From Oscillospiraceae bacterium (GTDB lineage: Bacteria; Bacillota; Clostridia; Oscillospirales; Acutalibacteraceae): DNA of 64,000 nucleotides. A model generated the notes under the pieces. The model saw only the letters and a program-made list of their open reading frames with translations. It did not search any database and was not told the origin of the DNA. Made by a program: the position numbers and the translations under genes. Positions 26,962 to 59,870 of this stretch are shown here, piece after piece. The stretch covers positions 124,001 through 188,000 of the forward strand of contig CACWPS010000004.1 in NCBI GenBank assembly GCA_902762875.1, given 5' to 3'. Every line of letters starts with the position of its first letter. Positions within the stretch are counted from its first letter, which is position 1.

Positions 26962-27786
26962 ATGAGTTGCAAAGTAATTGCAATCGAAAACCAGAAAGGA
27001 GGCACGGGAAAATCAACTACGGCATTGAATCTCGGAGTTGGGCTTCATAACGCCGGTAAAAAGGTTTTGCTTATCGACGCTGACCCGCAGGGTTCGTTGT
27101 CAATCAGTCTCGGTATTAAGCGACCCGACGAGCTGGACATTTCCCTTGCAACGGTTATGGGGAATGTTATAGACAACAAATCCTTTGAAGATGATTTCGG
27201 TATCATACACTGCGACGAGGGCATTGACCTTATGCCCTGTAATGTGGAGCTGTCCGGTATCGAAAGCTATCTGTTTACGGTGATGAGCCGAGAGTGCATT
27301 ATGAGAACCTATGTCAATCAGATCAAGAAAAATTATGACTATATTCTCATAGACTGCACCCCTTCCCTCGGACTTCTGCCAATCAATGCTTTTGTAGCGG
27401 CAGACAGTATCATTGTACCGAGCCAGCCGAGGATATTATCTACCAAAGGTCTTGATTTACTCTTGCGTACCTATTCGCAGGTCAAGCGAGGGATAAATCC
27501 CGACCTGAAAATCGACGGTATCCTCTTTACAATGGTGGACGCACGAACCGTAAATGACAGGTCGGTAATTGAGTCAATGCGTGAGAATTTCGGAATGAAA
27601 ATCAATGTATTTGACACCTTTATCCCCGCATCCGTCCGTGTGACCGAAGCCAATATGGAGGGCAAGAGTATCTTTGCCTATGACAACAAGTGCAAGGTTG
27701 CGGACGCATACCGAAACTTGACGAAGGAGGTGCTAGACATTGCCGCGCGTGAAAAAGCTCGATTTAGGGATGACGGCTCTCGATGA
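26962..27786 (+). CDS. parA: ParA-family partition ATPase
   Basis: This 274-residue P-loop ATPase is of the ParA/Soj family, which with ParB helps keep or position mobile DNA. The deviant Walker A is ENQKGGTGKSTTALNLG (about residue 10). Walker A' is LLIDADPQGSLS, and Walker B is YILIDCTPSLGLLPINA. AAGGAG precedes the ATG. It starts the element's long plus-strand gene set and overlaps parB by 47 bp. This ParA-ParB-SpoVG order is common at one end of Tn1549-like elements. Confidence 0.94.
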   Translation: MSCKVIAIENQKGGTGKSTTALNLGVGLHNAGKKVLLIDADPQGSLSISLGIKRPDELDISLATVMGNVIDNKSFEDDFGIIHCDEGIDLMPCNVELSGIESYLFTVMSRECIMRTYVNQIKKNYDYILIDCTPSLGLLPINAFVAADSIIVPSQPRILSTKGLDLLLRTYSQVKRGINPDLKIDGILFTMVDARTVNDRSVIESMRENFGMKINVFDTFIPASVRVTEANMEGKSIFAYDNKCKVADAYRNLTKEVLDIAAREKARFRDDGSR

Positions 27787-28681
27787 GCTGTTTATGAACG
27801 ACAAGGAGCGAGCCGAAAACAAGCTCCCCAAAATCTTTGATATTCCGCTTTCGGAAATTGATGATTTTCCCGATCACCCTTACCGCGTCCTTGATGATGA
27901 GGATATGCAAAACCTAATGGAAAGTATCAGAGACCGAGGTGTTATTACACCGGCTATGGTGCGCAAAAAAGATGACGGCAGATATGAAATGATTTCGGGA
28001 CACCGAAGAAAGCACGCATCCGAACGGCTCGGACTTGAAACCCTGCGTTGTGAGGTTGTGGAGGTCAGCCGTGACGAAGCCATTATTTTAATGGTTGACA
28101 GTAATGCCCAACGGTCGGAGATTTTGCCCTGTGACAAAGGACGAGCCTACAAAATGAAGTTGGACGCAATAAAAAGACAGGGACAGAGAACGGATTTAAC
28201 TTCGACCCCAGTGGGGCCGAAGTTAGGAGAACGCTCAAATGATGAACTGGCTGAACAGGTTGGTGATAGCCATACCCAAATCCAAAGATATATCCGCCTT
28301 ACCTATCTTGTCCCCGAGCTTCAGGAGTTTGTGGATAAAGGTCAGATGAAAATGCGTCCTGCGGTGGAGCTTTCGTATCTCGATGAAGAAACTCAGCGAG
28401 ATATTGTTGACCGTATTGACGAAACCGAAGCGTTTCCGTCACACGACCAGGCAATCCGTATCCGCAAGGCGTTTGAAGCCGGAGAAATCAACTACGATAA
28501 GGTTCAGCACATTATGGCGGAGGAAAAGCCCAATCAAAAACCGAAATTCAAGTTTTCTTTTGACCGGCTGAAACCGTATATCCCCAAGGACTATAACGAA
28601 AGAATGGCAGAAGATTATGTCATTAAGGCACTGGAACACTATCAAAAGTATCTCAAAAAACAACGGGAGCAGGCAAGGTAA
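27740..28681 (+). CDS. parB: ParB/Spo0J-family partition protein
   Basis: This DNA-binding partner of ParA has 313 residues. The ParB N-terminal CTPase domain is seen in IPLSEIDDFPDHPYRV, GVITPAMVRKK and the box YEMISGHRRKHASERLGL. A helix-turn-helix follows in NDELAEQVGDSHTQIQRYIRL. The start is a TTG inside the parA gene. The C-terminal 60 residues are basic and differ from chromosomal ParB. No clear parS-like 16-bp palindrome was found nearby. Confidence 0.92.
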   Translation: MPRVKKLDLGMTALDELFMNDKERAENKLPKIFDIPLSEIDDFPDHPYRVLDDEDMQNLMESIRDRGVITPAMVRKKDDGRYEMISGHRRKHASERLGLETLRCEVVEVSRDEAIILMVDSNAQRSEILPCDKGRAYKMKLDAIKRQGQRTDLTSTPVGPKLGERSNDELAEQVGDSHTQIQRYIRLTYLVPELQEFVDKGQMKMRPAVELSYLDEETQRDIVDRIDETEAFPSHDQAIRIRKAFEAGEINYDKVQHIMAEEKPNQKPKFKFSFDRLKPYIPKDYNERMAEDYVIKALEHYQKYLKKQREQAR

Positions 28682-28789: not shown

Positions 28790-29071
28790 ATGCAGTTTGA
28801 TGTTAAAATCCGCAAGGTCATCGAGAACGGCAAGCCCCTCAAGGCGGTTGCTTCCGTGACTGTGGACGGCGCTTTTGTTATCCACAATGTCAGAGTGATC
28901 GAGACCGAGAACGCAAAGTTCGTTGCAATGCCTTACGCAACCTATCAGGATGCCGAAGGCAAGGATGTACGCCGTGATATCGTTCATCCCATCAAGTCCG
29001 AAGTCCGCAAGGCTTTGGAGACCGCTGTGTTTGCTGCCTACGAGCAGAAGATCAGCGAAAAGGCTGAATAA
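28790..29071 (+). CDS. SpoVG-family protein of mobile elements
   Basis: This 93-residue protein has the SpoVG fold, a small RNA- or DNA-binding regulator in sporulating bacteria. The match is MQFDVKIRKVIENGKPLKAV, ASVTVDGAFVIHNVRVIE and FVAMPYATY. AAAGGAGG lies before the ATG. Copies like this are usual beside ParA/ParB in conjugative elements. Its target is unknown. It sits just ahead of the pilin genes, so a role in their control is possible. Confidence 0.85.
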   Translation: MQFDVKIRKVIENGKPLKAVASVTVDGAFVIHNVRVIETENAKFVAMPYATYQDAEGKDVRRDIVHPIKSEVRKALETAVFAAYEQKISEKAE

Positions 29072-29130: not shown

Positions 29131-29352
29131 ATGTTCAAGAAAATCAGAAACAAGGTTAATTCCATGGTTGCTACTGCTAAGGCGACCGTTGCCACAAAGA
29201 AGGCTGAGGGTTATGTCGATTCCGGTGTAAAAATTCTTATCGCCGTAGTTATCGGTGCATTGCTCCTTGCAGGACTTTACACGCTCTTCAACACTACCAT
29301 CATGCCCACCGTGACGACCAAGATCACCGGGCTTTTCTCGTATAGCGGTTAA
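29131..29352 (+). CDS. Flp-like small pilin 1 (DUF6133-like)
   Basis: This 73-residue protein has a basic N terminus (MFKKIRNKVNSMVATAKATV). A processing-site-like EGYVDSG follows, then a long hydrophobic helix ILIAVVIGALLLAGLYTLF and a short polar tail. That layout is that of a Flp pilin made as a precursor. It is nearly a twin of the next gene and stands just before a prepilin peptidase and full Tad machinery. A pilin role is therefore strongly suggested. Known Flp pilins have Glu at +5; here that position is Gly. Confidence 0.75.
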   Translation: MFKKIRNKVNSMVATAKATVATKKAEGYVDSGVKILIAVVIGALLLAGLYTLFNTTIMPTVTTKITGLFSYSG

Positions 29353-29395
29353 TCCGTAATACACACAAAAAATAGAAAGAACGAGGTAAAAGAAT

Positions 29396-29617
29396 ATGTT
29401 TAAGAAAATCAGAAACAAGGTTAATTCCGCAGTAGCGGCGGTTAGAGCGACTGTTGCTTGCAAGAAGGCTGAGGGCTATGTTGATTCCGGTGTCAAGATT
29501 TTGATCGCCGTTGTAATCGGCGCACTCCTGCTCGGCGGACTGTATTTGCTGTTCAACGGCACCATCATGCCCACCGTGACCACCAAGATTCAGGGACTTT
29601 TCAACTACGCAGGCTAA
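29396..29617 (+). CDS. Flp-like small pilin 2 (DUF6133-like)
   Basis: This is the second tandem pilin-like gene, 73 residues, with the same EGYVDSG site and hydrophobic helix as the first. Differences are mainly before the cleavage site (SAVAAVRATVACKKA) and in the tail (FNGTIMP, FNYAG). The upstream ribosome-site blocks of the two genes are also alike, which points to tandem duplication. A strong GC-rich hairpin follows the stop codon. The pair may encode major and minor subunits. Confidence 0.75.
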   Translation: MFKKIRNKVNSAVAAVRATVACKKAEGYVDSGVKILIAVVIGALLLGGLYLLFNGTIMPTVTTKIQGLFNYAG

Positions 29618-29624
29618 ACACGGA

Positions 29625-29654
29625 CGGCGGGGTGTCAATGGAGGCACCCCGCCG
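29625..29654 (+). terminator. GC-rich hairpin after the pilin pair
   Basis: A perfect 10-bp stem, CGGCGGGGTG with CACCCCGCCG, has a 10-base loop and is followed by CTTATTTTA. It lies between the pilins and the assembly genes. It could act as a partial terminator or stabilise pilin mRNA, giving more pilin than machinery. Confidence 0.72.
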
Positions 29655-29683
29655 CTTATTTTACTATGAAAGGGGCGCATTGA

Positions 29684-30322
29684 ATGCATTTGATGATTCG
29701 ACCTATTATGCCGTATGATATACCGAAGCTTACCGAAAATCCGTTTGTCCTCATAAGCGGCTTTGTGCTGGTGATTACGGCTGTGCTCACTGCCGTTGTT
29801 CTCAGCCGGTATGCTGCCGAAGTATATAAAGGCAACAGGAAAAAAGCAACGCTTTTCTTTGCCGGTATTACGGCATTTGTAACCCTTATGCTGTTCTGTT
29901 TTTTTGGATGTGCTGCAACTGCGGTCAAGGGATGTATTTTCTGCCTACTCCTCCTATTCTCCTCTTATGAGGATATACGGGTAAGAGAGTGCGAGGACTA
30001 TGTCCATTTAATGATCGTGATTGCAGCGTTTATCGGAACGGATATGGCGGCTTTGCCGAATATGATTTTTTCAGCTTTGCTTGTAGGCGGTATTATGCTC
30101 ATGACAACAATTATAACCAAAAGTCAAATGGGCGGTGCGGATATTAAGCTTTCCGCCGCCTGTGCTTTTTTGCTCGGAACCGTACAGGGCTTTGCCGGAC
30201 TGATGCTCGGACTTATCGCCGCTATTATTGTAAACATCATTAAAAACAGAAAAAAGAACACAGAGGGATTCCCCTTAATCCCATACCTTGCCGTCGGGTT
30301 TATGGCGGCATATTTTATGTAG
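29684..30322 (+). CDS. Prepilin peptidase (A24/TadV-CpaA family)
   Basis: This 212-residue membrane aspartic protease matures pilins. Six or so hydrophobic segments are visible. The first catalytic aspartate is in SSYEDIRVRE (after helix three), and the second is in MGGADIKLSAA, the GxGD-type motif in a GGAD form. No cytoplasmic methylase domain is present, as in TadV/CpaA. AAAGGGG lies upstream. It sits between the pilin pair and the CpaB gene, so its substrates are probably the two pilins and the two later pseudopilins. Confidence 0.87.
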   Translation: MHLMIRPIMPYDIPKLTENPFVLISGFVLVITAVLTAVVLSRYAAEVYKGNRKKATLFFAGITAFVTLMLFCFFGCAATAVKGCIFCLLLLFSSYEDIRVRECEDYVHLMIVIAAFIGTDMAALPNMIFSALLVGGIMLMTTIITKSQMGGADIKLSAACAFLLGTVQGFAGLMLGLIAAIIVNIIKNRKKNTEGFPLIPYLAVGFMAAYFM

Positions 30323-30338
30323 AAACAGGAGGTTCAAT

Positions 30339-31061
30339 ATGAAGAACAGAACAATTATCGGTATTGTCTGCATGATTCTTGCGGTTGCCATGACCTTTGC
30401 TGTCGCACCACTTGTAAACCGTCTGACAAGCGATACAACTACGGTTGTTCGGCTCAAACAGGATGTCGGCAGAGGTGCAAAGATTACAGCAGAACAGGTT
30501 GAAACCGTCAAGGTTAAGACAGATACCATGCCGCAGGGCGTGTATGTTAACACCGCTGATGTTATCGGTAAGTATGCTTCTTCTACCCTTTACGCCGGAG
30601 ATATTCTCACAAAGGCAAAGCTTACGAAGGATGCCAACAGTGCAGATGATGTATTTGCTTCGCTTAACGGCAGTAAGGTTGCGGTCAGCGTAACCATAGA
30701 TACCTTTGCGGCAGGACTTTCGGGCAAGCTTCAGAACGGAGATATTATCTCCCTTATCGTTGTAGATAAAAATGCCGGTACTTCCTCTATTCCCGGTGAG
30801 CTTAAATATATGAAGGTTATTACGACCACAACTGCGGGCGGTATTGACCAAGACTCTATTGTGAAGAACGAAGACGGCAGTTTTGAGATTCCGAGCACTA
30901 TCACCGTGCTTTGTAATACCGAACAGGCCAAGCTCCTTGCAAAGTATGAAGCGGACATTACGCTCCAAGCGGCACTTGTTTACCGTGGCGATACAGAGAC
31001 GGCAAATAAGTTCATTGAAAAACAGGACGCTTTCTTTGCGGGAGGTGGCAACAATGGGTAA
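30339..31061 (+). CDS. CpaB/RcpC-like SAF-domain pilus assembly protein
   Basis: This 240-residue protein has one N-terminal membrane helix (TIIGIVCMILAVAMTFAVAP) followed by a SAF domain. The SAF motif reads VGRGAKITAEQVETVKVKTD, then YASSTLYAGDILTKAKL. The ATG at 30339 is chosen because CAGGAGG lies just upstream; an earlier in-frame start would overlap the peptidase gene heavily. It is the CpaB-like component of Tad systems. Its end overlaps the next gene by 8 bp. Confidence 0.82.
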   Translation: MKNRTIIGIVCMILAVAMTFAVAPLVNRLTSDTTTVVRLKQDVGRGAKITAEQVETVKVKTDTMPQGVYVNTADVIGKYASSTLYAGDILTKAKLTKDANSADDVFASLNGSKVAVSVTIDTFAAGLSGKLQNGDIISLIVVDKNAGTSSIPGELKYMKVITTTTAGGIDQDSIVKNEDGSFEIPSTITVLCNTEQAKLLAKYEADITLQAALVYRGDTETANKFIEKQDAFFAGGGNNG

Positions 31062-31767
31062 GATGATTGCCGTTTGCGGTGCTCCCGGCAGCGGGAAAAC
31101 CACCGCCGCACTGAAAATTGCGGAGGAAATCTATTACGCAAAAAAAGGTTCGGTAATATTTCTTTCTCCTGATTTGAATGTGCCCTGTCTTGCGTTTGTA
31201 TTTCCGAACTGTAAGGAGGAAGAACTGTATTCTGTCGGCGTTGCGCTGGACCGCACGGATATTTACCGTGAGGACGTGCTCCGCCAGATGAACCATGTGA
31301 AAACAATGGAGAACTTCGGCTTTCTCGGATATAAAGCCGGGGAAAACAAGTATTCCTATCCGCGACCGACTGAGGATAAAATCCTAAATCTGTTCTCTAT
31401 TTTGAGAGAACTTGCAGACTATGTAATCGTAGACTGTGCGGACGGGCTTATCTCATCTATGGCAAAGAGCCACGCAGATATGCTCGTTCAGCTTATCACC
31501 CCCGACCTTAAGTGTATGGCGTACTATTCATCTAATTCGGGAATGTTTGAGCTTGGTGCCGAGAACCGCATTAAGGTTATGAATATTTCGGATAAGGATT
31601 TGTTCTTGCCTATTACAGAAGTGGCAAATCACTTTAAGGGCGTGGATTTTACTCTGCCCTATTCAAAGGCACTAAAACAGCAGACCATCACGGGAACGCT
31701 CTCCGAAAGGCTTCCCGATGCTAAGTACAGGAGCGTGGCGGCGGGAATTGCAAAGGCGGTGATTTAA
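31054..31767 (+). CDS. TadZ/CpaE-like P-loop ATPase
   Basis: This 237-residue protein has a P-loop, AVCGAPGSGKTTAALKIAEE, at its start and YVIVDCADGLISSMAKS as a Walker B-like strand. It has no N-terminal receiver domain, so it is a minimal TadZ relative. In Tad loci such MinD-like proteins place the machine at the membrane or pole. It lies between cpaB- and cpaF-like genes and its stop overlaps the next start (TAATG). The ATG at 31054 follows GGAGG. The call rests on the P-loop and context. Confidence 0.72.
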   Translation: MGKMIAVCGAPGSGKTTAALKIAEEIYYAKKGSVIFLSPDLNVPCLAFVFPNCKEEELYSVGVALDRTDIYREDVLRQMNHVKTMENFGFLGYKAGENKYSYPRPTEDKILNLFSILRELADYVIVDCADGLISSMAKSHADMLVQLITPDLKCMAYYSSNSGMFELGAENRIKVMNISDKDLFLPITEVANHFKGVDFTLPYSKALKQQTITGTLSERLPDAKYRSVAAGIAKAVI

Positions 31768-33080
31768 TGGCACAGAAAATAGACTTCGTATCATTACTTC
31801 ACAAGTCACAAGAATATATATCCGAAAACTATGCGGCGGCACTTTCCGACCGCAGTAAGGTTGTGCAGCTCCGCTCATATATTGAGAAATATATGCACGA
31901 CAGCGGATTTGAAGTGGAGGGCATGACTTTCCGTGAACTATCGGATAAGCTCTATTCCGAAATGGCGGAGTATTCGGTGCTTACAAAATATCTCGGTCGT
32001 GATGAAATTGAGGAAATCAATATCAACGGCTGGGACGATATTGCCGTCACCTATACCGACGGGCATATTGAGAAAGCAAAGGAGCATTTCTACAACCCGC
32101 AGCACGCCGTTGATGTGGTAAAGAGATTACTTCATCATTCCGGCATGATTATTGATAACGCTACGCCAATGTCACAGGGACATCTCCCGGGCAACACCCG
32201 TATTACGGCACTGAAAGAGCCGCTTGTTGATGATGACAGAGGTATCAGCGTGTCTATCCGACTTCTGCACCCGTCAAGAGTGGATATGAAGGCGCTTGTC
32301 AAAGGCGGTAATGCTACGCAGAAAATGATCGACTTTTTATGTATGTGCCTTCGTTACGGTATTTCTTTTGTGGTAGCCGGTGCAACATCCTCCGGTAAAA
32401 CCACACTGCTTAACGCACTGCTCACTTCCATTCCGGATAACAAGCGTATCTTTACCATTGAGTCAGGCTCCCGCGAGCTGTCGCTTGTAAAGGTGAAGGA
32501 CGGCGAAGTTATCAACAATGTGGTTCATACCCTTTCCCGTCCGTCGGATAACCCGGCGTATGATATCACACAAGAGAACTTGGTGGTAGCGTCCCTCCGA
32601 TTCAACCCCGATATTGTTGTAGTCGGAGAAATGCGAGACACCGAAGCTTATTCTGCGGTGGAAGCAAGTCTTACCGGACACACGGTAGTATCGACTATTC
32701 ATGCATCGGCGGCAGACGCGGCTCATATGCGTTTGGCTTTGCTATGTCAGAAGCGCTTTCCCATAAACTTTGCAACCTCACTTATGCAGGCAGGACAGGC
32801 GTTTCCGCTTGTTGTGTACGCTCATAAGCTTGAAGATAATTCCCGTAAAATCATGGATATTTCCGAGTGTGTTATTACGCCCTCAGGAGAACGGGAGTAT
32901 CACACGCTTTTCCGTTTTCGCATCACAAAAAACGAGCTGAAGCGCGGCAAATACAAAATTGACGGTTTCTTTGAACAGCCAGAGATTATGAGCGACCACC
33001 TGAAGGGAAAGCTCATGCAGTTCGGCGTACCGCAGAAAACCTTAGAGCAGTTTTTAGTAAAGGACGGTGATTTAAAATGA
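31767..33080 (+). CDS. CpaF/TadA-type secretion ATPase
   Basis: This is the hexameric motor of the pilus, 437 residues. The N-terminal domain includes DEIEEININGWDDIAVTYTDG. The ATPase core has Walker A VVAGATSSGKTTLLNALL (about residue 205), the Asp box, Walker B with DIVVVGEMRDTEAYSAVEA, and the His box in TVVSTIHASAADAAHMR. These identify the GspE/CpaF family. It lies between the TadZ-like and TadB-like genes and overlaps both by one to four bases. Confidence 0.93.
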   Translation: MAQKIDFVSLLHKSQEYISENYAAALSDRSKVVQLRSYIEKYMHDSGFEVEGMTFRELSDKLYSEMAEYSVLTKYLGRDEIEEININGWDDIAVTYTDGHIEKAKEHFYNPQHAVDVVKRLLHHSGMIIDNATPMSQGHLPGNTRITALKEPLVDDDRGISVSIRLLHPSRVDMKALVKGGNATQKMIDFLCMCLRYGISFVVAGATSSGKTTLLNALLTSIPDNKRIFTIESGSRELSLVKVKDGEVINNVVHTLSRPSDNPAYDITQENLVVASLRFNPDIVVVGEMRDTEAYSAVEASLTGHTVVSTIHASAADAAHMRLALLCQKRFPINFATSLMQAGQAFPLVVYAHKLEDNSRKIMDISECVITPSGEREYHTLFRFRITKNELKRGKYKIDGFFEQPEIMSDHLKGKLMQFGVPQKTLEQFLVKDGDLK

Positions 33081-34000
33081 TTTTTTCGGTCATAAGCTCG
33101 GTTCTCATAATTATATCAATCGTATGTCTTTTCGGGCTAACCCCCGAACAAGTCACCGACGATTTAATGAGGTTAATCACCCCGAACGATACTATGCGGG
33201 ACAAATCCCGTCATCTTCGTGGAAACAAGAAAAAGCACCGATTGTACCGTACTCTTGTAAAGATGAAAACCGCCCTTGCCGTTACGGGCAAATCAAAGCA
33301 GTTTACGATTGTCTGCTGTGCGTCGCTTATTCTTTTCGCGGCGGGCATTATTGTGTCGGTGTTGATAGATAACATTTTCCTTATGCCGGTACTGTCGGTG
33401 GCGTTTGCCCTGATACCGTTTTTTTATACGACAAGCACTCTTTCCTATTACGAAAAGAATACCAAAGAAGAACTTGAAACGGCGCTCTCTATCATCACAA
33501 CCTCGTATGTGCGCTCGGACGATATCGTTGCGGCGGTCAGAGAAAACATCAAGTATATCAAACCGCCCCTTCGTGATGTGTTCAAGTCTTTTGAAGGCGA
33601 AGCCACCGCCATTTCCTCTAATATCAAACGCGCACTTTACAAACTTAAAAGTATGGTGGACAATGAAATATTTTGGGAATGGTGCGACACGCTCATTCAG
33701 TGTCAGGATGACCGAACCTTGAAAGACACGCTTTTGCCTATTGTTGCAAAGCTAACCGATGTTCGTATCGTAAACTCGGAGCTGAAAACGATGCTTTCCT
33801 CAGCCCGTAATGAATATTGGTTTATGGTGGCGCTGGTTGTCGGTAATATCCCGCTTTTGTATTTGCTCAATAAGGATTGGTTCCACACGCTGCTCTTTAC
33901 CACGCCCGGTAAACTTGTGTGCGGTATTTGCGGTATGGTAATTCTGATTACGGCTTTGTTTATGATGAAGTTCACAAAGCCCGTTGAGTACAAGAGATAA
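33077..34000 (+). CDS. TadB-like inner membrane platform protein
   Basis: This 307-residue membrane protein starts with a short signal-anchor (ISSVLIIISIVCLFGL). A paired helix block (FTIVCCASLILFAAGIIVSVL and following) comes next, then a soluble type II secretion F-like domain with EELETALSIITTSYVRSD. The last two helices close the protein. This matches TadB topology. It overlaps the ATPase gene by 4 bp and is followed 14 bp later by the TadC-like gene. The pair should form the platform at which pilin assembles. Confidence 0.82.
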   Translation: MIFSVISSVLIIISIVCLFGLTPEQVTDDLMRLITPNDTMRDKSRHLRGNKKKHRLYRTLVKMKTALAVTGKSKQFTIVCCASLILFAAGIIVSVLIDNIFLMPVLSVAFALIPFFYTTSTLSYYEKNTKEELETALSIITTSYVRSDDIVAAVRENIKYIKPPLRDVFKSFEGEATAISSNIKRALYKLKSMVDNEIFWEWCDTLIQCQDDRTLKDTLLPIVAKLTDVRIVNSELKTMLSSARNEYWFMVALVVGNIPLLYLLNKDWFHTLLFTTPGKLVCGICGMVILITALFMMKFTKPVEYKR

Positions 34001-34014
34001 GGAGGTTTGAAAGT

Positions 34015-34884
34015 ATGTTACAGGCAATTATCGGCGCACTTTGCGGCGTCGGACTATTCTTTGTACTTGCGGATGTGTACCGTATTCCGTATCTGAAAAC
34101 TTCCAAGGCGGTGGAAAGCCTTTCAAAAAAGCAGAAGGTCAAGACTTCAACGCTGAATGTATGGCTCGGAAACCTTGCGGATTTTCTCGCAAAACACATG
34201 AAGCTCAACGAGTTCAAAAAGGCTCAGCTTGAAGCCGATCTCAAAACGGCGCAGATGGATATTACTCCCGAAAAGTTCAAAGCGAATGCCATTGTAAAAG
34301 CGCTGCTTATCGGTATATTTGCCATTCCGATGGCGTTCATCTTTCCCATTCTCTCTCCCGTAGTTCTGTTCCTTGCGGTATTTCTTTACCGCAGAGAACT
34401 AAAAAGCGTTTCGGTACGGATACGGCATAAGCGAGAGAAAATCGAAAGCGAACTGCCGAGATTGGTATTTACGATAGATAAGACCTTAAAGCACAGCCGC
34501 GATGTGCTGTATATGCTTGAAAGCTATGCAAAGAACGCCGGTCGTGAAATGAAGCACGAACTGGATATTACGGTGGCGGATATGAAGTCGGGCAACTATG
34601 AGGCGGCGATCACAAGACTTGAAGCAAGAGTCGGCTCTGCCATGATGAGCGATGTGTGTCGCGGTCTTATAGGTATTCTTCGCGGAGACGATACCGAAAT
34701 GTATTGGGCGTCGCTGTCCCTTAAATTCAACGATATTCAGCGTCAGCAGTTAAGACTTCAGGCGCAGAAGGTACCGAGAAAAGTCAAACGCCTTTCCATG
34801 TGTCTGCTTATCTGCTTTATGCTCGTTTATGTGGTCGTAATTCTATCTCAAATCATGGACTCGATCGGCGTCCTGTTCGGATAA
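34015..34884 (+). CDS. TadC-like inner membrane platform protein
   Basis: This is the partner of the TadB-like gene, 289 residues. It has an N-terminal membrane helix, a helix pair (LLIGIFAIPMAFIFPILSPV), a soluble T2SS-F domain (SELPRLVFTIDKTLKHSRDV) and a final helix, LLICFMLVYVVVILSQIM. GGAGG precedes the ATG. The end is followed closely by the pseudopilin gene. Confidence 0.82.
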   Translation: MLQAIIGALCGVGLFFVLADVYRIPYLKTSKAVESLSKKQKVKTSTLNVWLGNLADFLAKHMKLNEFKKAQLEADLKTAQMDITPEKFKANAIVKALLIGIFAIPMAFIFPILSPVVLFLAVFLYRRELKSVSVRIRHKREKIESELPRLVFTIDKTLKHSRDVLYMLESYAKNAGREMKHELDITVADMKSGNYEAAITRLEARVGSAMMSDVCRGLIGILRGDDTEMYWASLSLKFNDIQRQQLRLQAQKVPRKVKRLSMCLLICFMLVYVVVILSQIMDSIGVLFG

Positions 34885-34895
34885 GGAGGGGTTGT

Positions 34896-35309
34896 ATGAT
34901 GAAGAAGATATTACACTCTAAAAAGGGCGAAGGCTATGTGGATATGTGCGTCGGAGTGGTCGTTTTCGTGATGATTCTCGTTATCGCCATTAACATTTTC
35001 AGTTTTATCACCCTGCGTATTGAGATGGATCAGATTGCCGATGAGCTTATCGAAGCAGCAACCTATGCCGGTTGTTTTGACGATGATTTTTGGCACGCCG
35101 ACAGCGATATGCTGGATCAGTATTACTACTATGGTATTGATTACGGAGCAGACAGGTATTTCAACAGTACCTACCGCCGTGTTCAGCTCGGCGAGCGAAT
35201 GTGGGTAGAGATTTCAAAGCACACATATGTCAAAGGACTCGGCGTGTTCAAAATTCCCGTCACCGTAAAGGTTAAGAAATCGGGACTTTCGGAAAGATAC
35301 TGGAAGTAG
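34896..35309 (+). CDS. TadE-like pseudopilin (DUF4320-like)
   Basis: This 137-residue protein has a short basic leader and the site KKGEGYVDMCVGVVVFVMIL. It then continues as a hydrophobic helix and a polar C-terminal domain with FKIPVTVKVKKSG. The GEGYVD block is the same as in the two small pilins, so the same peptidase probably cleaves all three. The start is the first of two ATGs (34896, 34899) after AAGGAGG. It resembles DUF4320 proteins of conjugative elements and the TadE minor pilins of Tad loci. Confidence 0.77.
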   Translation: MMKKILHSKKGEGYVDMCVGVVVFVMILVIAINIFSFITLRIEMDQIADELIEAATYAGCFDDDFWHADSDMLDQYYYYGIDYGADRYFNSTYRRVQLGERMWVEISKHTYVKGLGVFKIPVTVKVKKSGLSERYWK

Positions 35310-35317
35310 GTGGATGT

Positions 35318-35788
35318 ATGATAAACAAACGGGGAGACGGATATATTTCTACTTGTGTAATGATTGTGGTTATATGTATGCTGCTGTCGGTATTCGTGAC
35401 TTTTGCGGTATCGGTAAATACAGTAAAAACGGTTCAAAGAAATTCCCGGGTTGTGCTTGACAGCTTTGTAATGAAAAACTCAATCGTTATTTACGATTCA
35501 ATTAAAAACGGAAACAACTCCACAGCAGAGCTTGACGAGGATATGTATACCGAGGATTTATGCGACTTTTGCACATTTGAAAAAAACGGAGAATATTTAT
35601 ATGCTTATACCGGTGACGGAAAACTTAAATACAAGCTTTCAAAGCCGATTATATCGTTCGCTACTGAAGGGAAATTAAAAATTAATGCGAGTTATACAGT
35701 ATATTATCCTATTGATTTTGCCGGAGTAGTGATTGATACCGCTGAAATACCTGTCACTGTGGAATCAAAATATAATGAAAAATTTTAG
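35318..35788 (+). CDS. Second pseudopilin-like protein
   Basis: This 156-residue protein begins MINKRGDGYISTCVMIVVIC, a GDGYIS site followed by a long helix. It then has a charged domain ending in VIDTAEIPVTVESK. The layout mirrors the previous gene (leader, Gly-Tyr site, helix, beta-rich end), so it is likely a TadF-like minor pilin. The DNA is more AT-rich here than in the assembly genes, suggesting this part of the locus varies between elements. Confidence 0.65.
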   Translation: MINKRGDGYISTCVMIVVICMLLSVFVTFAVSVNTVKTVQRNSRVVLDSFVMKNSIVIYDSIKNGNNSTAELDEDMYTEDLCDFCTFEKNGEYLYAYTGDGKLKYKLSKPIISFATEGKLKINASYTVYYPIDFAGVVIDTAEIPVTVESKYNEKF

Positions 35789-35800
35789 GAGGTCACCGAA

Positions 35801-36364
35801 ATGAAAAAGAAAATAATTATAGTATTATGCGGGGTTATACTTGCCGCTCTCTTAGCATTGGCAGGAGCTTTTGTGATCTTTAATAATAAACCGACCGCAA
35901 AATCGGATGAAGCGAAAAACCCAAGTAAAAAAAGCCCCGATATTCAAATTGAAATTGATAATACCGATGAGGTTGAAAGCAGTGAGGACAATGACAGCAG
36001 TGATAACTTAAGCTTTATTGAACCCGATGAAACCGAAGCGGATAAATTGCTGAACGAAAACAATAAGACAAAGGATAATTCAAAAGCTGAATCCGCAATA
36101 TCAAGCTCTGAAGCTGAAGAAACAGAGAGTGTTGAAGTTCAGACCTTTGAGGAAGGCAAAACCGAGCTCGAAGATACAGCGGACGATTATCTGAAAGCTA
36201 ATAAAATAGACCCTAAAACCGCAGGTGAAACGGGAGAAATATGCCCTAACTGCGGAAAGAAAATATGGAATCCGGACAAGTACGGATTTTTCATACCCGG
36301 AATGCCGGACGATTACGAAAACAGCGGTTATTGTCTCGGTACCTGCGGGATTTCCTTAGAATAG
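35801..36364 (+). CDS. Membrane-anchored acidic protein with C-terminal zinc-ribbon-like motif
   Basis: I do not recognise this 187-residue protein. It has one N-terminal membrane helix (IIIVLCGVILAALLALAGAF) after two lysines. About 90 residues of low-complexity acidic and Ser-rich linker follow. The C-terminal domain is compact, with four cysteines in a CPNCGKK...YCLGTCG pattern. The cysteines could bind zinc outside the membrane. It sits between pseudopilins and the large secreted protein, so a pilus-related surface role is possible. Confidence 0.6.
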   Translation: MKKKIIIVLCGVILAALLALAGAFVIFNNKPTAKSDEAKNPSKKSPDIQIEIDNTDEVESSEDNDSSDNLSFIEPDETEADKLLNENNKTKDNSKAESAISSSEAEETESVEVQTFEEGKTELEDTADDYLKANKIDPKTAGETGEICPNCGKKIWNPDKYGFFIPGMPDDYENSGYCLGTCGISLE

Positions 36365-36376
36365 GAGAGATTTCTA

Positions 36377-39300
36377 TTGAAAAAGAAATTAAAAAAACTA
36401 ATAACAATGCTGACTGTTGTTATGACTATGACAGCGGTATTTACAATGAAGACCCACGCTGTAAGCCTTGATTACAGCGGAGGGTCTTCTGCTAATAATA
36501 CGGGAGCTACAGCAACAACATCGGGCTTTACCGTTTCATACGATAAGGCAAAAGATAATATTTGCGGTTACAGATTCAGCGTTGTGTCAGCTTCGGGTGC
36601 GCCTAAAAGCGGAACAAAGGCTGTTAATGTTTATCTTAGCGACATTACCATAGGAAACAGCGCTTATTCCTCGGGTCAGCGCTTTATTGTATCAAGCGGA
36701 GTTGCCGCAAACAAGAAGCAATTAGCAAACGGAACAAAGGTAAGCAGTACTACTTCTACTCAAGGCTGTGATTACAAATCGGGAAACTGCGGTTTTTATT
36801 CTTCTTTACCGCAAAATCCCGATTCGATCGGCACATGGATAAAAAACTCATCTAACAACTATCAGAATCTTTCAAGAATATATGTTATCTGCGGCACTAA
36901 TCTTTCAAACGCAACCGAAAGCGATTATGTGCTTACAGAGCCTATTTTCCGTATGAAGCTGGCAGGTACGCAAACTGCGGCAACCTCAACCGAGTTAGCG
37001 ATTTACGGAGCCGCTGTATCGGGAGGCGACGGATATAACGGCGGCAACGGAAACCTTTACAACGCCGGTTCGGGAACATTATGGAATTTAATGTACTATA
37101 TAAACAGAGAGTTTCCTAATGCGCTTTATGTATCGTCTAATACAGGTGTATACAATGCGGTATCTGTTAAATCAAGCGGTCGGTACACCTACAAAGAGAT
37201 AATCCAAAACGGATACGGCTGTTCGGTTTTAACCGTTAAAAATGTTATTACGATTAAAACGGATTACACAAATTCCATAACTCACTGGAAATATGTCGGC
37301 ACAGGCGGGGATAACGGCAACGGAACCTTTAAAAATATGGGTTCCTCGACATTTACGGGTAAGGCGGGAAATTCCGTAACAATCCCAAGCAATTTAGTAC
37401 AGAGCTATACGGGATATTACAATACCGGCGTAGCAGGCTCTTATTGGGCGACGGGTACTTGGTCTAATAAAAATATAGGTTCAAGCTTTACTCAACCTGC
37501 GTGTAATGTTTGGATGGAATATTATTACTACCCAAAATCCGTTAAGGTTGTATTCAACAAAAATGACGGAAGCAATAGCGTAGCAGACCAAACCTTCACC
37601 TATGCGGTTTCGGGTAACAGATTCGGTTATAACAATGACGGTAAGCCTAAATGGTATAACAACAGCGGACAGTTCGGCGGATGGGACAGAGAGGGCTATA
37701 CTTTGCTCGGTTGGAGTGAATCTGCAACGGCAACAAGCGAAACTTACTCTACCTATAGCGGTGTTGCGGACTGGTGGATAAATTCAAAAGTTCCCGACCC
37801 AAATGCGAGCAGTACAGTTAATCTCTATGCCGTATGGAAAAAGAACACCTATACGGACGCAATAAGCCATTGGGCGTGGGGTTTTAACGGTAATGGAAAT
37901 AACGGTGACCGGAATGCTTTCCATTTAACAAATACCAACTTCACTAAGAGCTATGGTGATGTTTTCGCCTTGACAGAAGCTGACGCAACCGCTATACCTA
38001 ACGGTTTTTATTTGAATAATACTTGGCAGATAGGAACCGATTCTGTAAATGGTTCTTGGCAAAATTATCCGTATGGTACTAAATTTACACAAAAAAATTA
38101 TAATATGGGTTTTGAATATGATTATCATCCGTATACCTATAACATTACCTACGATTTAGACGGAGGAACTAACGATCCGAACAACCCCACAAGCTATAAT
38201 GTTTTGTACGGTAAGGATTTATACTCCCCCACAAAAACGGGATATGAGTTCTTGGGTTGGATGCGGGATTATACAAACCCGCAAATCGCCCTTTCTGCAT
38301 TAAACCATAATTACAATTACTATAATGTTTTAAATAACATTGAACCAGGAACAGAATACGAAATAACAATAGGTAATGCAAAAACCACCGCCGGTTCATC
38401 GTCTATGTTCTCGTGCGTTATTTACGATTTCACAGACAGCAAGTGCTTTTTTCAAAAAAATATCGCCTTTGGAAGTAACCTTTCGTTTTCGGTTACCTGT
38501 CCGGCTTCTGCCGATACGAACCACGATATAAGGCTGTTGTTTTATTCGGGTGTTGCAGGAAGTACAAGCGGTATTGCTTCGGTTTATTCCAATGTCAATA
38601 TTAAGTATTATCTTGACGGTATAAATAAAGGCTGCGGCTCGGCTTTCGGCAGTCCGAACGAATTGTATACAGAGTTGTCTAAGCGTACAACAGGCGATAT
38701 TAAACTAATCGCCAAATGGGAATTGTATGAGAAAATCGCTATTGTTCCTATTGAGCCTAATGCTCCGTACAGAGAAAAAACAAATGTCATTTCGAGCTTT
38801 TGGTTGGTAAACCTTTCGGATGACGATTATACACCGACAACGGGAGCAAAGGTTGTGTTCAGCGTTTACAATTCTTCGGGTCAAAGAATTGCGGTTGAAA
38901 CACAGGGTTTTATTGCGCCTAAAAGGGATAAGAATTTAGCGTATTTCGGTTGGTATGTACCCGACGGTTATGCTTCTTCCGATGTAACGGTTAATGCATA
39001 TATTGACGACGGTCCTTATCAGTACAGCCACACCTCGGAGAGCTATACAATCGCCTCATACGATACCTGCATAGAGCCCGATACAGATTACAATGCTAAA
39101 GCTCCCGATGGGTTTACAGTACCTCCGTCTCCCTCCGATAGCACAACAAGCGGACGGTGGTGGCAATGGGTGTACAGCGGAGGTGCTTATACAAAGAAGC
39201 AGTTTGCGGTTGCTAATACTGTAAACGATCTTGTTTTAACAGCGCCCACAAGTCCATCTGCATATACCGAAAACGGTAAGCTGTATATGAAATCCGGTTA

Positions 39301-39661
39301 TGGCTTTGAATTAAGCTTTAAGGACAGTATGTATACGGTAAGCGGATATACGGACGGTTCGGTTAACGAATGCTTTGCACCGCAATATTATTACGCTTTG
39401 TTCCCCGAATATAATTATACCTATGGCAGAGATAAATGCCGAAGCATTGAAACGGTATCGGGTAAAAAGGTATTTGTAAATGCCGCGGATATGGCAAGAC
39501 AGCATTTCACACCGATATATTACCCGGACGGCGAGTATAAGCTTAAGGCGGTTTTAAGCGACTGTTGGACTCCTGCGGGTATGATTACCACATATAAAAC
39601 CGTCGCTGTTCAGATTAACGGGAATGTTTATGACGATTGGTATATAGGCAGGAATGATTAA
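36377..39661 (+). CDS. Large secreted protein with InlB-type and duplicated domains
   Basis: This 1,094-residue protein begins with a signal peptide (TTG start; MKKKLKKLITMLTVVMTMTA, cleavage near THA-VS). It carries two related blocks of about 95 residues, near residues 294-388 and 489-585. They share an S-ITHW/S-ISHW opening and end in MEYYYY or FEYDYHP. Each is followed by an InlB/Flg_new-like repeat (VVFNKNDG; ITYDLDGGTNDPNNP) that ends GW and AVWK/AKWE. The second repeat holds an inserted beta-rich domain. There is no LPXTG sorting signal. As the last gene of the Tad run it is a good candidate for a pilus tip adhesin, but that is inference. Confidence 0.72.
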   Translation: MKKKLKKLITMLTVVMTMTAVFTMKTHAVSLDYSGGSSANNTGATATTSGFTVSYDKAKDNICGYRFSVVSASGAPKSGTKAVNVYLSDITIGNSAYSSGQRFIVSSGVAANKKQLANGTKVSSTTSTQGCDYKSGNCGFYSSLPQNPDSIGTWIKNSSNNYQNLSRIYVICGTNLSNATESDYVLTEPIFRMKLAGTQTAATSTELAIYGAAVSGGDGYNGGNGNLYNAGSGTLWNLMYYINREFPNALYVSSNTGVYNAVSVKSSGRYTYKEIIQNGYGCSVLTVKNVITIKTDYTNSITHWKYVGTGGDNGNGTFKNMGSSTFTGKAGNSVTIPSNLVQSYTGYYNTGVAGSYWATGTWSNKNIGSSFTQPACNVWMEYYYYPKSVKVVFNKNDGSNSVADQTFTYAVSGNRFGYNNDGKPKWYNNSGQFGGWDREGYTLLGWSESATATSETYSTYSGVADWWINSKVPDPNASSTVNLYAVWKKNTYTDAISHWAWGFNGNGNNGDRNAFHLTNTNFTKSYGDVFALTEADATAIPNGFYLNNTWQIGTDSVNGSWQNYPYGTKFTQKNYNMGFEYDYHPYTYNITYDLDGGTNDPNNPTSYNVLYGKDLYSPTKTGYEFLGWMRDYTNPQIALSALNHNYNYYNVLNNIEPGTEYEITIGNAKTTAGSSSMFSCVIYDFTDSKCFFQKNIAFGSNLSFSVTCPASADTNHDIRLLFYSGVAGSTSGIASVYSNVNIKYYLDGINKGCGSAFGSPNELYTELSKRTTGDIKLIAKWELYEKIAIVPIEPNAPYREKTNVISSFWLVNLSDDDYTPTTGAKVVFSVYNSSGQRIAVETQGFIAPKRDKNLAYFGWYVPDGYASSDVTVNAYIDDGPYQYSHTSESYTIASYDTCIEPDTDYNAKAPDGFTVPPSPSDSTTSGRWWQWVYSGGAYTKKQFAVANTVNDLVLTAPTSPSAYTENGKLYMKSGYGFELSFKDSMYTVSGYTDGSVNECFAPQYYYALFPEYNYTYGRDKCRSIETVSGKKVFVNAADMARQHFTPIYYPDGEYKLKAVLSDCWTPAGMITTYKTVAVQINGNVYDDWYIGRND

Positions 39662-39709: not shown

Positions 39710-39727
39710 ATTTAGGAGGTGGAAACC

Positions 39728-40336
39728 TTGACGAATGAAAAAAGAAAGGTCGGCAATTACGAGGTGATTGCCTGTCAGCGAATCGGCGGCGAGGAAATCA
39801 TTGTCGGTGAAGATAAGAACGCCGTGCCGCCTGAGCGGTATATTTGCTGTTATGTGGAACGCAACGAGCTGATGGAGCTTTACACACACGGCTTGGCAAG
39901 CGACGGCTATGCTGAAATTTTTGAAATATACGGTCAGCGCATTACCACGGCGGCAAAGAATGCCATCGAAAAAACCGATGAAGAAAAAGCGGTTATCGGC
40001 GGCGAGGACAGAGTTATCACCGCAGATAAATGCCGCCGTATCTCCAGTGAAGACAACCTGATAAACAAAGTGGTTGTAATCGACAGCAATGTTTTCAGCC
40101 CCGAATATCAGCTTGCCACGCATCAGCTTATGTTCTGCACGGGCGGCTTCGGCTCACAGCCTAATGCCAGAGGGCGCACCTGCTTTTGCACCTCTCTGTA
40201 TGATGGGCACAAAGCGAATTTTTACAGACAGGATGTACTCGGCATTATAGATGCAGACTCACTTCCCAAATGGGCAAAGCCGGGTTACGAAAAGGCTTTG
40301 CAAGCCGCAAAAAAAGAAGAAAGGAATGAAAGATAA
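39728..40336 (+). CDS. ICE-conserved protein of unknown function
   Basis: This 202-residue soluble protein starts at TTG 39728. I chose it because AGGAGG ends 8 bp upstream, while the earlier GTG at 39719 touches the site. It has an acidic N-terminal half and a C-terminal block rich in aromatic and cysteine residues (QLATHQLMFCTGGFGSQPNA, GRTCFCTSLYDGHKANF, RQDVLGI). The His, Cys and Tyr residues of that block look conserved. Proteins like it accompany the giant helicase in Tn1549-type elements. No function can be given. Confidence 0.7.
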   Translation: MTNEKRKVGNYEVIACQRIGGEEIIVGEDKNAVPPERYICCYVERNELMELYTHGLASDGYAEIFEIYGQRITTAAKNAIEKTDEEKAVIGGEDRVITADKCRRISSEDNLINKVVVIDSNVFSPEYQLATHQLMFCTGGFGSQPNARGRTCFCTSLYDGHKANFYRQDVLGIIDADSLPKWAKPGYEKALQAAKKEERNER

Positions 40337-41271
40337 TGAGTTTTGATTTGAAGGTAATGAAAGAACCGGAACAAAAGTATACCTATCGGCAAAGCACACA
40401 GATTGCTATGCAGTGCGGACTCATTGGGTATCTTCGTGCGGATATGGATACAAACGGAAAGGGTTTTTTCAGTTCTTGGAACGATTACCGCACGGATCTG
40501 AAAACGGACGAGTTCAAAGCGGAATTTGACGATCTGATTAACACCTACCGTCAAAAAGACAATTTTCTTGCGGACAGAAACACGCTGAGTAAGTTCTGTT
40601 ACAAGGAAGCTTTGCAATACGGCAGCGACGAACGCTCTTTCGGTGTTCGAGTAGATTCCGATGATTACGCCTATCTTTGCAGGCTCAATCCCCATCAGGG
40701 CGAATACAACCTATACTGCTACTGCTACAAAAAAGAATGGCTTGACGACCATATCCGTAATGCCGAGAAAGGTATCCGTTTCATTACACCGGAATACAAA
40801 GAAAAGTTCCGCATTAAGGACGGCGACCGCATTCGTATTACCTACTCTGACGGAAAGACTTGCGACAGGGTGTGTAGATATATAGACGAATACCATGTTG
40901 AGGTGGGAGATAATCTCTATCATATTTGCGAATTTGCCGAGCGTATAGAGCAAAACGGCGCAAAGGTCATCCCGCTTCGCTCGGATTTGCCCGAAACTTG
41001 TTATGCGACTTTGCCCGGGACTGATGAAGTAATCATCATCAAGCATGGAGAAAGCGGATATTACACTTGTGAGTATTCGACCGATGATAAAGCATTTAAC
41101 CGAGCGTTGGTTGATGATCGAAATTCAAACCTCGGAGTCAGCAAAGCACAGGTAGAAGCAATGCTTGCAGGCTCTATGTTCGGTTGGGGCGTCCCCGCCG
41201 CTGAACCGAAAAGCTATGACGAAAACGGCGTCTTGCTTCATAATTCAAAAGACAGAGGTGACGCACGATGA
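40336..41271 (+). CDS. ICE-conserved multi-domain protein of unknown function
   Basis: This 311-residue protein has an N-terminal globular part with RQSTQIAMQCGLIGYLRADM. Its Tyr-rich middle (YAYLCRLNPHQGEYNLYCYC) resembles large polyvalent protein-associated (LPD) domains of conjugative elements. A C-terminal segment follows with GDRIRITYSDGKTC and a glycine-rich end, and it ends in GDAR. It overlaps the next gene (ATGA). Its role may be anti-defence or regulatory, by analogy only. Confidence 0.65.
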   Translation: MSFDLKVMKEPEQKYTYRQSTQIAMQCGLIGYLRADMDTNGKGFFSSWNDYRTDLKTDEFKAEFDDLINTYRQKDNFLADRNTLSKFCYKEALQYGSDERSFGVRVDSDDYAYLCRLNPHQGEYNLYCYCYKKEWLDDHIRNAEKGIRFITPEYKEKFRIKDGDRIRITYSDGKTCDRVCRYIDEYHVEVGDNLYHICEFAERIEQNGAKVIPLRSDLPETCYATLPGTDEVIIIKHGESGYYTCEYSTDDKAFNRALVDDRNSNLGVSKAQVEAMLAGSMFGWGVPAAEPKSYDENGVLLHNSKDRGDAR

Positions 41272-41453
41272 AATATTCGGTAAAAGTCAAAGAAATCAGC
41301 TACGGTGTTGTTGAAGTCGAGGCAGCTTCCGCTGAGGAAGCCGAAGAAAAAGCCGAGTCTGTTTATTATGACGGCAATATTATATGGGGCAATTCCGAGG
41401 TGGATTGCACCGCTGAACCTGTAAAAGAGAGAAAGCGAGATGAAGCACGATGA
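41268..41453 (+). CDS. DpnD/PcfM-like small protein
   Basis: This 61-residue protein has the DpnD/PcfM-like pattern: YSVKVKEISYGVVEVEAASA, then EEAEEKAESVYYDGNI and an acidic strand. The same domain opens the protein at 55866. The start overlaps the previous stop, and its own stop overlaps the next start, so three genes are coupled. The function in element biology is unknown. Confidence 0.75.
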   Translation: MKYSVKVKEISYGVVEVEAASAEEAEEKAESVYYDGNIIWGNSEVDCTAEPVKERKRDEAR

Positions 41454-41593
41454 GCGACACTTGTGTATGCTGCGGCCGAGAAATCCCGGAGGGCAGACAG
41501 GTTTGCCCTATCTGTGAATATGAAGCCGAGCACGGAAAGGAGGATGCGAATGTATCAGGAAAGCACAGACCATCTGATATGGTCGAACTATGA
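41450..41593 (+). CDS. Small zinc-ribbon protein
   Basis: A 47-codon gene begins at ATG 41450, overlapping the upstream stop, and reads MSDTCVCCGREIPEGRQVCP and then ICEYEAEHGKEDANVSG. Two CxxC pairs (CVCC and CPIC), about 12 residues apart, make a rubredoxin-knuckle-like zinc site. The gene overlaps the next one in another frame by 44 bp. Short proteins of this kind are frequent in phages and conjugative elements. A DNA- or protein-binding role is likely but unproven. Confidence 0.78.
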   Translation: MSDTCVCCGREIPEGRQVCPICEYEAEHGKEDANVSGKHRPSDMVEL

Positions 41594-42436: not shown

Positions 42437-42451
42437 AGAAGGAGGATGAAA

Positions 42452-56505: not shown

Positions 56506-56820
56506 TTGCGAAAAAGAAATGTTGAATTTCATTTTATGCTGACAGATGCCGAAGCATCCCTGCTTCAAACAAAAGCAAAAAAATGCGGGCTTTCACAGCA
56601 GGCATTTATGCGCTCACTGTTATATAACACACCCATCAAAGAGCAGCCGTCTATTGACTTTCATACCACAATAAAGTCGCTTGAAAAAATCGGAGACAAT
56701 ATCAATCAGATTGCCGCCAAAGCAAACACGCTCGGCTTTGTGGATCAGGTTCAGTACCGAAAAGAAGCAGATAAACTTGAAAGGGTTATTGCCGAACTTA
56801 TGCGGGCGGTGTATAGCTAA
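56506..56820 (+). CDS. mobC: MobC-family relaxosome protein
   Basis: This is a 104-residue accessory protein that helps the relaxase bind and open oriT. An N-terminal ribbon-helix-helix-like part, RNVEFHFMLTDAEASLLQTK and SQQAFMRSLLYN, is followed by the MobC signature LEKIGDNINQIAAKANTLGF. The start is TTG with GAGGTGG upstream. Its stop overlaps the relaxase start (TAATG). Confidence 0.92.
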   Translation: MRKRNVEFHFMLTDAEASLLQTKAKKCGLSQQAFMRSLLYNTPIKEQPSIDFHTTIKSLEKIGDNINQIAAKANTLGFVDQVQYRKEADKLERVIAELMRAVYS

Positions 56821-58956: not shown

Positions 58957-58959
58957 TGT

Positions 58960-59856: not shown

Positions 59857-59870
59857 AGGAGGAATTCGCT

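Follow-up and report, generated by a model that had tools for sequence, protein, structure and literature searches.

The window analysed here, a stretch of 64,000 nucleotides from an Oscillospiraceae bacterium (contig CACWPS010000004.1, positions 124,001 to 188,000), contains within a Tn1549-like conjugative element twelve co-directional genes on the + strand, at 29131-39661, which together form a Tad-type pilus locus. An initial annotation had described a complete Tad/Flp-type locus carried on a conjugative element; the gene positions and Pfam families agree with this, 'Tad-type' being the term that we retain. The genes are as follows, with positions counted from the first base of the window.

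29131..29352, +, candidate major pilin 1 (DUF6133), by Pfam; EGYVD read in the sequence at the putative prepilin cleavage site
29396..29617, +, candidate major pilin 2 (DUF6133), by Pfam
29684..30322, +, TadV-like prepilin peptidase; Pfam Peptidase_A24, with a GGAD active-site variant
30339..31061, +, CpaB/RcpC-like protein; Pfam RcpC and SAF, from the likelier start codon
31054..31767, +, TadZ-like P-loop ATPase, named by position; P-loop and weak MinD/ParA similarity
31767..33080, +, CpaF/TadA motor ATPase; Pfam T2SSE, a solved CpaF as best match, Walker A and GE-x-R present
33077..34000, +, TadB-like platform protein, named by position; profile alignment with the TadC family
34015..34884, +, TadC-like platform protein; T2SSF match in four of 15 family members
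34896..35309, +, pseudopilin 1 (DUF4320), by Pfam; GEGYVD stretch
35318..35788, +, pseudopilin 2, by position and relatives; no Pfam match
35801..36364, +, single-pass membrane protein with a C-terminal Cys-pair ribbon, from the sequence
36377..39661, +, large secreted protein ('BigSec'), a candidate pilus-associated adhesin; homologues in 40 of 51 loci

The genes are tightly packed, with intergenic gaps of -11 to +66 bases under the initial start codons and of -8 to +66 bases with the likelier ones (CpaB at 30339, TadZ at 31054, DUF4320 at 34896). Pfam matches along the module comprise DUF6133 twice, Peptidase_A24, RcpC/CpaB with SAF, T2SSE (CpaF), DUF4320 and, in the 1,094-residue BigSec protein, Flg_new repeats. 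The CpaB-like protein passes the Pfam RcpC cut-off (33.1 bits, cut-off 28.8) and lies slightly under that of the NCBIfam model pilus_cpaB (68.3 bits, cut-off 71); the A24 peptidase carries its GGAD motif, of the GxGD type, at residue 150, and the P-loop matches of the TadZ-like protein are all sub-threshold in Pfam. No Pfam match names the window's TadB- or TadC-like protein. Among their relatives, T2SSF is matched by four of the 15 members of the TadC alignment and by none of the 16 TadB members; the two family profiles align with one another (hhalign probability 88%), and neither found a convincing match among solved structures. A BLAST search over 51 loci with the Cys-pair ribbon protein returned only itself.

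An E/D-G-Y-V/I stretch immediately before the hydrophobic helix is common to the window's DUF6133 proteins, its DUF4320 protein and pseudopilin 2, and constitutes a putative shared prepilin cleavage site. A looser pattern, G[YFW][IVLA][DSNE], is present in 28 of 57 DUF6133, 24 of 46 DUF4320 and four of 43 pseudopilin-2 frames, and in 153 of 5,203 frames overall, these counts being rough given that frame starts were set mechanically. Judged by these frames, the motif is not general among pseudopilin 2 proteins across loci. The Flp pilin of Tad/Flp systems has a glutamate at +5; in the window's DUF6133 proteins this was not found on reading the sequence, which has EGYVDSG there instead. We therefore speak of a Tad-type machine and not of a canonical Flp pilin.

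A profile search of genome contigs with the CpaF alignment gave at least 357 confirmed relatives; among the best 80 of these, which were taken further, 43 loci (L015-L057) form a near group and the other 37 are distant. BLAST with the window genes recovers a recurrent order, DUF6133-A24-CpaB-TadZ-CpaF-TadB-TadC-DUF4320-pseudopilin-secreted protein, and a variant in which the last part stands ahead of CpaB and DUF6133 follows TadC. These CpaF proteins make up a separate clade, scoring at least 404 bits where the ordinary CpaF proteins of the same 30 genomes score 145-208 bits. With the window's own genome counted, and as lower bounds in that part of the first-look candidates was scored, clade CpaF occurs in at least eight of 150 genomes of the family and, across the phylum, in at least 21 of the 398 genomes sampled (at least 20 of 267 genera). 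Within the genus it is found in one of 21 genomes, the window's own, and the 20 sampled congeners gave no CpaF at E≤1e-30. The initial annotation had named, as a finding that would count against it, the same Tad locus at the same chromosomal position in relatives lacking the element. This was not seen: besides the absence of CpaF, DNA similarity to the window stops at the PFL genes of the left flank in the seven congeners examined. An empty-site test beside the window led no further, with congeners sharing these genes and differing in the sequence after them. A chromosomal Tad locus captured by chance was rejected on the absence of CpaF from the sampled congeners and its patchy occurrence in the family.

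Circular plasmids from Terrisporobacter, Clostridioides and one Oscillospiraceae isolate likewise carry the core of the module. Five plasmid records (L008, L009, L010, L011 and L014) are typed as non-mobilizable by PLSDB/MOB-suite; in the stretch read, the annotated tables of all five contain conjugation-type genes (VirD4, p028, TrbL or PrgI), and L008 has a MobP2 relaxase. A phage origin of the locus was considered and rejected: the phage record MT835617.1 (L012, a faecal 'Bacteriophage sp.' entry) is labelled UNVERIFIED, its open reading frames include, on our reading, the Tad module together with element-type genes, and it seems to represent a fragment of an element that carries Tad. A scan of viral contigs with the CpaF protein alone gave four pattern matches and no relative.

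The mobility of this combination, as first proposed, is borne out in relatives by linkage to VirD4, by switching between backbones and by near-identical stretches in three families. Linkage was scored in 30 genomes selected for carrying the module (31 of the 43 near-group loci, with L032 left out), with VirD4 called by PF02534 and the two kinds of CpaF compared within the same genomes, which hold 46 clade and 23 ordinary CpaF genes. Of the 46 clade genes, 30 have a same-strand VirD4 no more than 38 kb away. None of the 23 ordinary genes has one within 60 kb; one of these, a fragment at a contig edge, may be a member of the clade set. For twelve of the 16 unlinked clade genes the contig continues for less than 24 kb downstream, the side on which VirD4 lies in the commoner layout; the others are one upstream-layout case with 9 kb upstream, two that were not measured, and G005:C18, to which we return below. 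A VirB4-like gene is found near two of the contig-truncated loci. The Tad module recurs on conjugative elements.

Distances in the CpaF and VirD4 trees are correlated (r 0.258 over 37 pairs, with one of 9,999 permutations as high). VirD4 type labels were fixed before the trees were made, from gene layout and BLAST. Types I (window-like), II and III are each a single group in the VirD4 tree, where a mixed group IV needs two changes; the CpaF tree has six type changes over all types (minimum three), with three forced changes each for types I and II on strongly supported branches, some branches being long and of unsure placement. Therefore, with these VirD4 types in single groups and six changes in the CpaF tree, the module has passed from one backbone to another without leaving the conjugation genes. 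By this comparison of trees it occurs with at least four VirD4 types, between which it has been switched.

Three genomes picked through near-equal CpaF scores across three families (G269, G288 and G375) provide a more recent view. G269 and G288 share 29,319 bases at 99.8% identity; G269 and G375 share 19,592 bases at 98.9% and 10,743 at 99.4%; G288 and G375 share 19,586 bases at 98.7%, 6,211 at 99.7% and 11,169 at 98.1%. The Tad genes lie inside the first shared block of every pair. Similarity sets in within the last 25-35 bases of a tmRNA (G269), a tRNA-Asp (G288) and a tRNA-Ala (G375), the near-identical stretches (L212, L219 and L223) starting at the 3' ends of these genes, and the same bases follow in all three. 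This pattern looks like site-specific integration followed by recent spread across families. The three elements have a type II layout, unlike the window's, and the G269 VirD4 is 25% identical to that of the window.

The position of the module offers the best functional clue in these sequences. We read eight of the 14 Tad-less type I places in the family, favouring long contigs; two were unreadable, one (G110) with too short a contig and the other (G136) with no ParAB in range and its nearest thioester domain (TED) about 76 kb away on the contig. The six readable elements (G114, G062, G060, G051, G165 and G048), whose VirD4 proteins are 61-70% identical to the window's, keep the order ParA-ParB-[slot]-backbone-DUF3991-relaxase-VirD4; in G060 the backbone genes G205 and G311 are missing, as is the SNF2 gene, and gene G213 and the rest are kept. 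In all six, the 11-kb Tad block is replaced in the slot by one protein of 1,332-1,418 residues with at most two further small open reading frames. These proteins have a signal peptide and a C-terminal sorting-type tail (PKTGD or PKTSD). The four that were scanned by Pfam contain 8-10 SpaA repeats each, three of them with a TED and one with a T-Q ester domain, and a TED search, which adds G060 and G048, brings TED to five of the six. The same search gave no TED in the window's own genome. With the same slot filled by a SpaA adhesin bearing a sorting-type tail, the absence of Tad therefore looks like replacement and not like the loss of a passenger.

A corresponding exchange is seen on the type II backbone. 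Tad-bearing elements have the order G205-YodL-SpoVG-[SLH protein, Tad, secreted protein]-g15.9-g18.2, with g15.9 being 57-62% identical in four loci, and in G026:C9 the order is G205-SpoVG-[1,229-residue TED/SpaA protein with a PQTGD tail]-g15.9-g18.2. Type II Tad modules carry, next to SpoVG and the pilin genes, a surface protein of 1,310-1,349 residues with SLH and Ig-like domains (L027:1958-5998, L028:3373-7302, L033:3651-7592). Its identity with the adhesin of the Tad-less elements was considered and rejected, as the three copies scanned by Pfam gave SLH and Ig-like matches and no TED or SpaA.

The last gene of the module encodes a possible counterpart to these adhesins. Homologues of BigSec were found by BLAST in 40 of 51 loci, and 31 of the 40 were aligned, six plasmid copies and three near-duplicate or cut copies being left out. 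An N-terminal part of about 200 residues and a C-terminal part of about 300 residues are conserved around a variable middle. Between two anchors in the alignment lie 68-94 residues in 25 of the 31 proteins, and 242-989 in six relatives including that of the window (581). This layout suggests that BigSec is a constant carrier for a recognition region that can expand. A Pfam scan at E≤0.01 gave Flg_new repeats only, and no TED. A shufflon in the BigSec gene was rejected, with three weak inverted pairs and no array.

On these grounds we consider it likely that the module specifies a Tad (type IVc) pilus devoted to the spread of the element, as a mating-contact pilus. The A24 peptidase would cleave the DUF6133 prepilins, which the TadB/TadC platform and CpaF would assemble, with CpaB, TadZ and the two pseudopilins completing the machine. 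BigSec would probably sit on the pilus or the cell surface and bind recipient cells. The pilus would make the first contact and then hold the partner cell, perhaps also pulling it, until DNA goes through the separate VirD4/VirB4 channel; CpaF is said, in work by Ellison and colleagues from 2019, to drive the retraction of Tad pili. It would take the role thought to be played in sister elements by wall-anchored thioester or SpaA adhesins, and played by the type IV thin pilus in IncI plasmids. The sequences themselves show the gene content, the linkage to and co-inheritance with VirD4, the recent passage between families of a stretch bearing the module, and the replacement of the module in its slot by an adhesin; assembly of a pilus, the surface position of BigSec, recipient binding, retraction and an influence on transfer are what we infer from them. 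Passages of PMC8092201 describe a thioester adhesin as required for efficient conjugation of pLS20, and passages of PMC12857230 and PMC9045228 describe a type IV pilus that stands beside the type IV secretion system of R64 and TP114 and promotes transfer in liquid, an effect that with TP114 extends to the mouse gut. As a broader statement, held with somewhat less confidence though still favoured, some Gram-positive conjugative elements would use a retractile Tad mating pilus with its own conserved adhesin, exchanged in the slot with thioester/SpaA adhesins. Of the two roles initially suggested for a mobile pilus, the bringing together of mating cells thus gains positional support from the slot, and the spread of a colonisation trait stands as the less probable of the two.

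Several observations weigh against this interpretation. Of the sampled elements with a window-like VirD4, the majority come from genomes lacking Tad, and in those read the gene order is mostly preserved, a pattern that the initial annotation had named as counting against its proposal; such a VirD4 (at least 61% identity, E≤1e-100) is present 14 times in family genomes without clade CpaF, although all six readable slots hold a SpaA adhesin, and a single exchange event may lie behind these six. For type II, one slot of five was readable, three cases having ended before the slot and one being too distant. Across 125 VirD4 loci, 30 have Tad, 11 have TED, none has both and 84 have neither, a distribution that is not significant (Fisher p 0.065); VirD4 is nearby for 11 of 23 TED genes, and Tad for none of the 23. 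The 35 VirD4 matches of the family sample divide into one with Tad, nine with TED and 25 with neither. In G133, one of the eight Tad loci of the family, 4-5 kb separate CpaF from a TED gene. The right part of the near-identical elements is mosaic, the VirD4 stretch of G269 being just 76% identical to those of G288 and G375, and BigSec has no Pfam match that tells its function. Finally, in G005:C18 the 41.6 kb of contig that follow clade CpaF contain no VirD4. This CpaF is split over two frames, and type II backbone genes, some of them broken, come after it. Among them is a VirB4-like gene that shares 75% identity with the one in G016:C55, and from its gene content the locus seems to be a type II element in decay. 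The element of G133 (L120-L122), which combines Tad with TED, is compact and pLS20-like, and an ISL3 transposase gene lies beyond its mobilisation genes.

The alternative that survives best, although we regard it as unlikely, is that the pilus is cargo, giving the host a means of sticking to gut surfaces or of forming biofilm and so spreading the element through that benefit. Tad pili are adhesion devices in other bacteria, and the host would gain a new trait, given that the sampled congeners lack CpaF and that its own genome (1.69 Mb in 22 contigs) has a single T2SSE match above the cut-off. This reading fits less well with the co-inheritance with VirD4 over backbone types and with a slot that can also house adhesins of a type with a known role in conjugation. 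Moreover, clade loci on long enough contigs adjoin conjugation genes, and even the VirD4-less case keeps a VirB4-like gene and a type II backbone.

It is very improbable that CpaF acts as a VirB11-like third ATPase of the type IV secretion system, or that the Tad machine forms a section of the path taken by DNA, a role proposed in the case of PAPI-1. The two ATPase families are related, with the NCBIfam VirB11 and TadA models giving 133.3 and 132.5 bits on the window CpaF, both below their own cut-offs (373 for TadA), and passages of PMC12857230 describe the PAPI-1 type IV pilus as needed for transfer under all conditions. However, the profile of the CpaF clade matches a solved CpaF far better (E 2.5e-42) than VirB11 (about 1e-22), the whole pilus set is conserved and not CpaF alone, the element brings genes of its own for VirD4, a VirB4-type ATPase, PrgI and a TrbL-like protein, and VirD4 and its neighbours persist in sister elements without the Tad module. 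We give still less credence to a pilus serving some other act of the element, DNA uptake or the exclusion of other elements: type IV pili can take up DNA and mobile elements often carry exclusion functions, but no competence family is a best or over-threshold match in the module, and its slot partner is an adhesin. The least probable reading is that the window copy is decaying or silent, for although the contig ends inside the element, leaving its overall intactness out of view, and a decayed relative exists in G005:C18, all twelve frames are open, purine-rich stretches resembling ribosome sites precede many starts and the motor motifs are present.

The locus to which we ascribe a mating-contact pilus sits in an element whose remaining genes also match the initial annotation, with ParA, ParB and SpoVG upstream of the module and NikA, relaxase, DUF3801, ArdC and VirD4 downstream.

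26962..27786, +, ParA-type ATPase at the left flank of the slot; Pfam AAA_31, kept in sister elements
27740..28681, +, ParB at the left flank of the slot; Pfam ParB_N, 45-69% identity in sister elements
28790..29071, +, SpoVG-like regulator; Pfam SpoVG, often adjoining the Tad module by synteny across loci
39719..42104, +, backbone genes G205, G311 and G213 with small open reading frames, right of the slot; recurring in sisters with or without Tad
42446..50827, +, 2,793-residue MutS-I/SNF2-helicase backbone protein; Pfam and sisters
56506..58229, +, NikA-like accessory protein and MobA/VirD2-type relaxase; Pfam
58180..61902, +, DUF3801, ArdC-N and VirD4 coupling protein; Pfam and alignments
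61868..63120, +, VirB2-like small protein and TrbL/VirB6-like membrane protein; weak TrbC match

Downstream of Tad the order is the 2,793-residue MutS-I/SNF2 protein, DUF3991-Toprim, YodL, NikA, relaxase, DUF3801, ArdC and VirD4, whose true start probably lies downstream of 59908. The VirB2-like small protein is one that we take to be Maff2, and the membrane protein at 62284-63120, for which a Pfam scan gave no match, is presumably TrbL/VirB6-like. A Fic protein, PrgI and a TraG/VirB4-type ATPase follow at and past the end of the window, so that relaxase, VirD4, VirB4-type ATPase and PrgI, the gene set of a conjugative element, are all present. The contig ends 5.8 kb past the window, ahead of the element's right end and of any integrase, and base composition along the window shows no clear step.

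Several other features of the element were noted. The protein at 42446-50827, relatives of which belong to the backbone of most sister elements read, combines MutS domain I, SNF2 helicase domains and a sub-threshold Eco57I-methylase match. Two AAA_14/DUF4143 ATPase genes lie at 24723-25970, near the left border region, and at 51035-52393, inside the element, with an AAA_14-like fragment at 26139-26423. The Fic-domain gene (63214 to L004:1153) stands inside the run of secretion-system genes, between the TrbL-like gene and PrgI. At the contig end, a collagen-repeat gene (L004:5260-6768) adjoins a gene, presumably CD1108-like, that is shorter than its relative in G176.

A CpaF ATPase and a whole pilus operon travel with conjugation systems in scattered families of the phylum, and on Clostridioides plasmids among others. 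If they do specify a mating-contact pilus, this would help to account for the passage of large elements from one gut bacterium to a distant other while the medium moves, and the formation of mating pairs in such hosts would become directly testable by gene removal. The component families are established ones, and Gram-negatives offer precedents for conjugation aided by a pilus. Among the matches listed from open-licence papers, no title or abstract opening describes a Tad pilus on Gram-positive conjugative elements, which is no proof of its absence from print, and neither DUF4320 nor DUF6133 is mentioned in that literature.

Several known systems can be compared with the module. The same order from prepilin peptidase to DUF4320 is present in the annotated records of pCd5_2, pTPHSE1, the MB08-C2-2 plasmid and others; three of the four Peptostreptococcaceae plasmids have a pLS20_p028-type secretion system and DUF6133 is annotated in pTPHSE1 only, and the tables of these Clostridioides, Terrisporobacter and Oscillospiraceae plasmids give the pilus genes no conjugation role. 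With the Tad/Flp (type IVc) pili, of which Caulobacter cpa and Aggregatibacter tad are examples, the module shares a CpaF motor, a prepilin peptidase, CpaB, a TadZ-like protein, two candidate platform proteins, small pilins and two pseudopilins; it differs in its separate CpaF clade, in DUF6133/DUF4320 pilins that in the window have an E/D-G-Y stretch, in the added conserved secreted protein and in its close tie to conjugation genes. PAPI-1 of Pseudomonas likewise pairs a type IV pilus with a conjugative island, whereas the element of the window has a fuller channel set. The thin pilus of IncI plasmids (R64 and TP114) is, like this module, a second, pilus-type machine beside a type IV secretion system, and is described in the passages cited above as aiding transfer in liquid; the module of the window is nonetheless of Tad type, belongs to monoderm hosts and shows no inversion-type repeat array in its BigSec gene. 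Finally, where TIE-pLS20 and its kind are single surface proteins, the window has an 11-kb pilus operon whose BigSec protein is without a TED match, yet it shares with the Gram-positive thioester/SpaA adhesins the same slot in sister elements and, as we propose, the same job.

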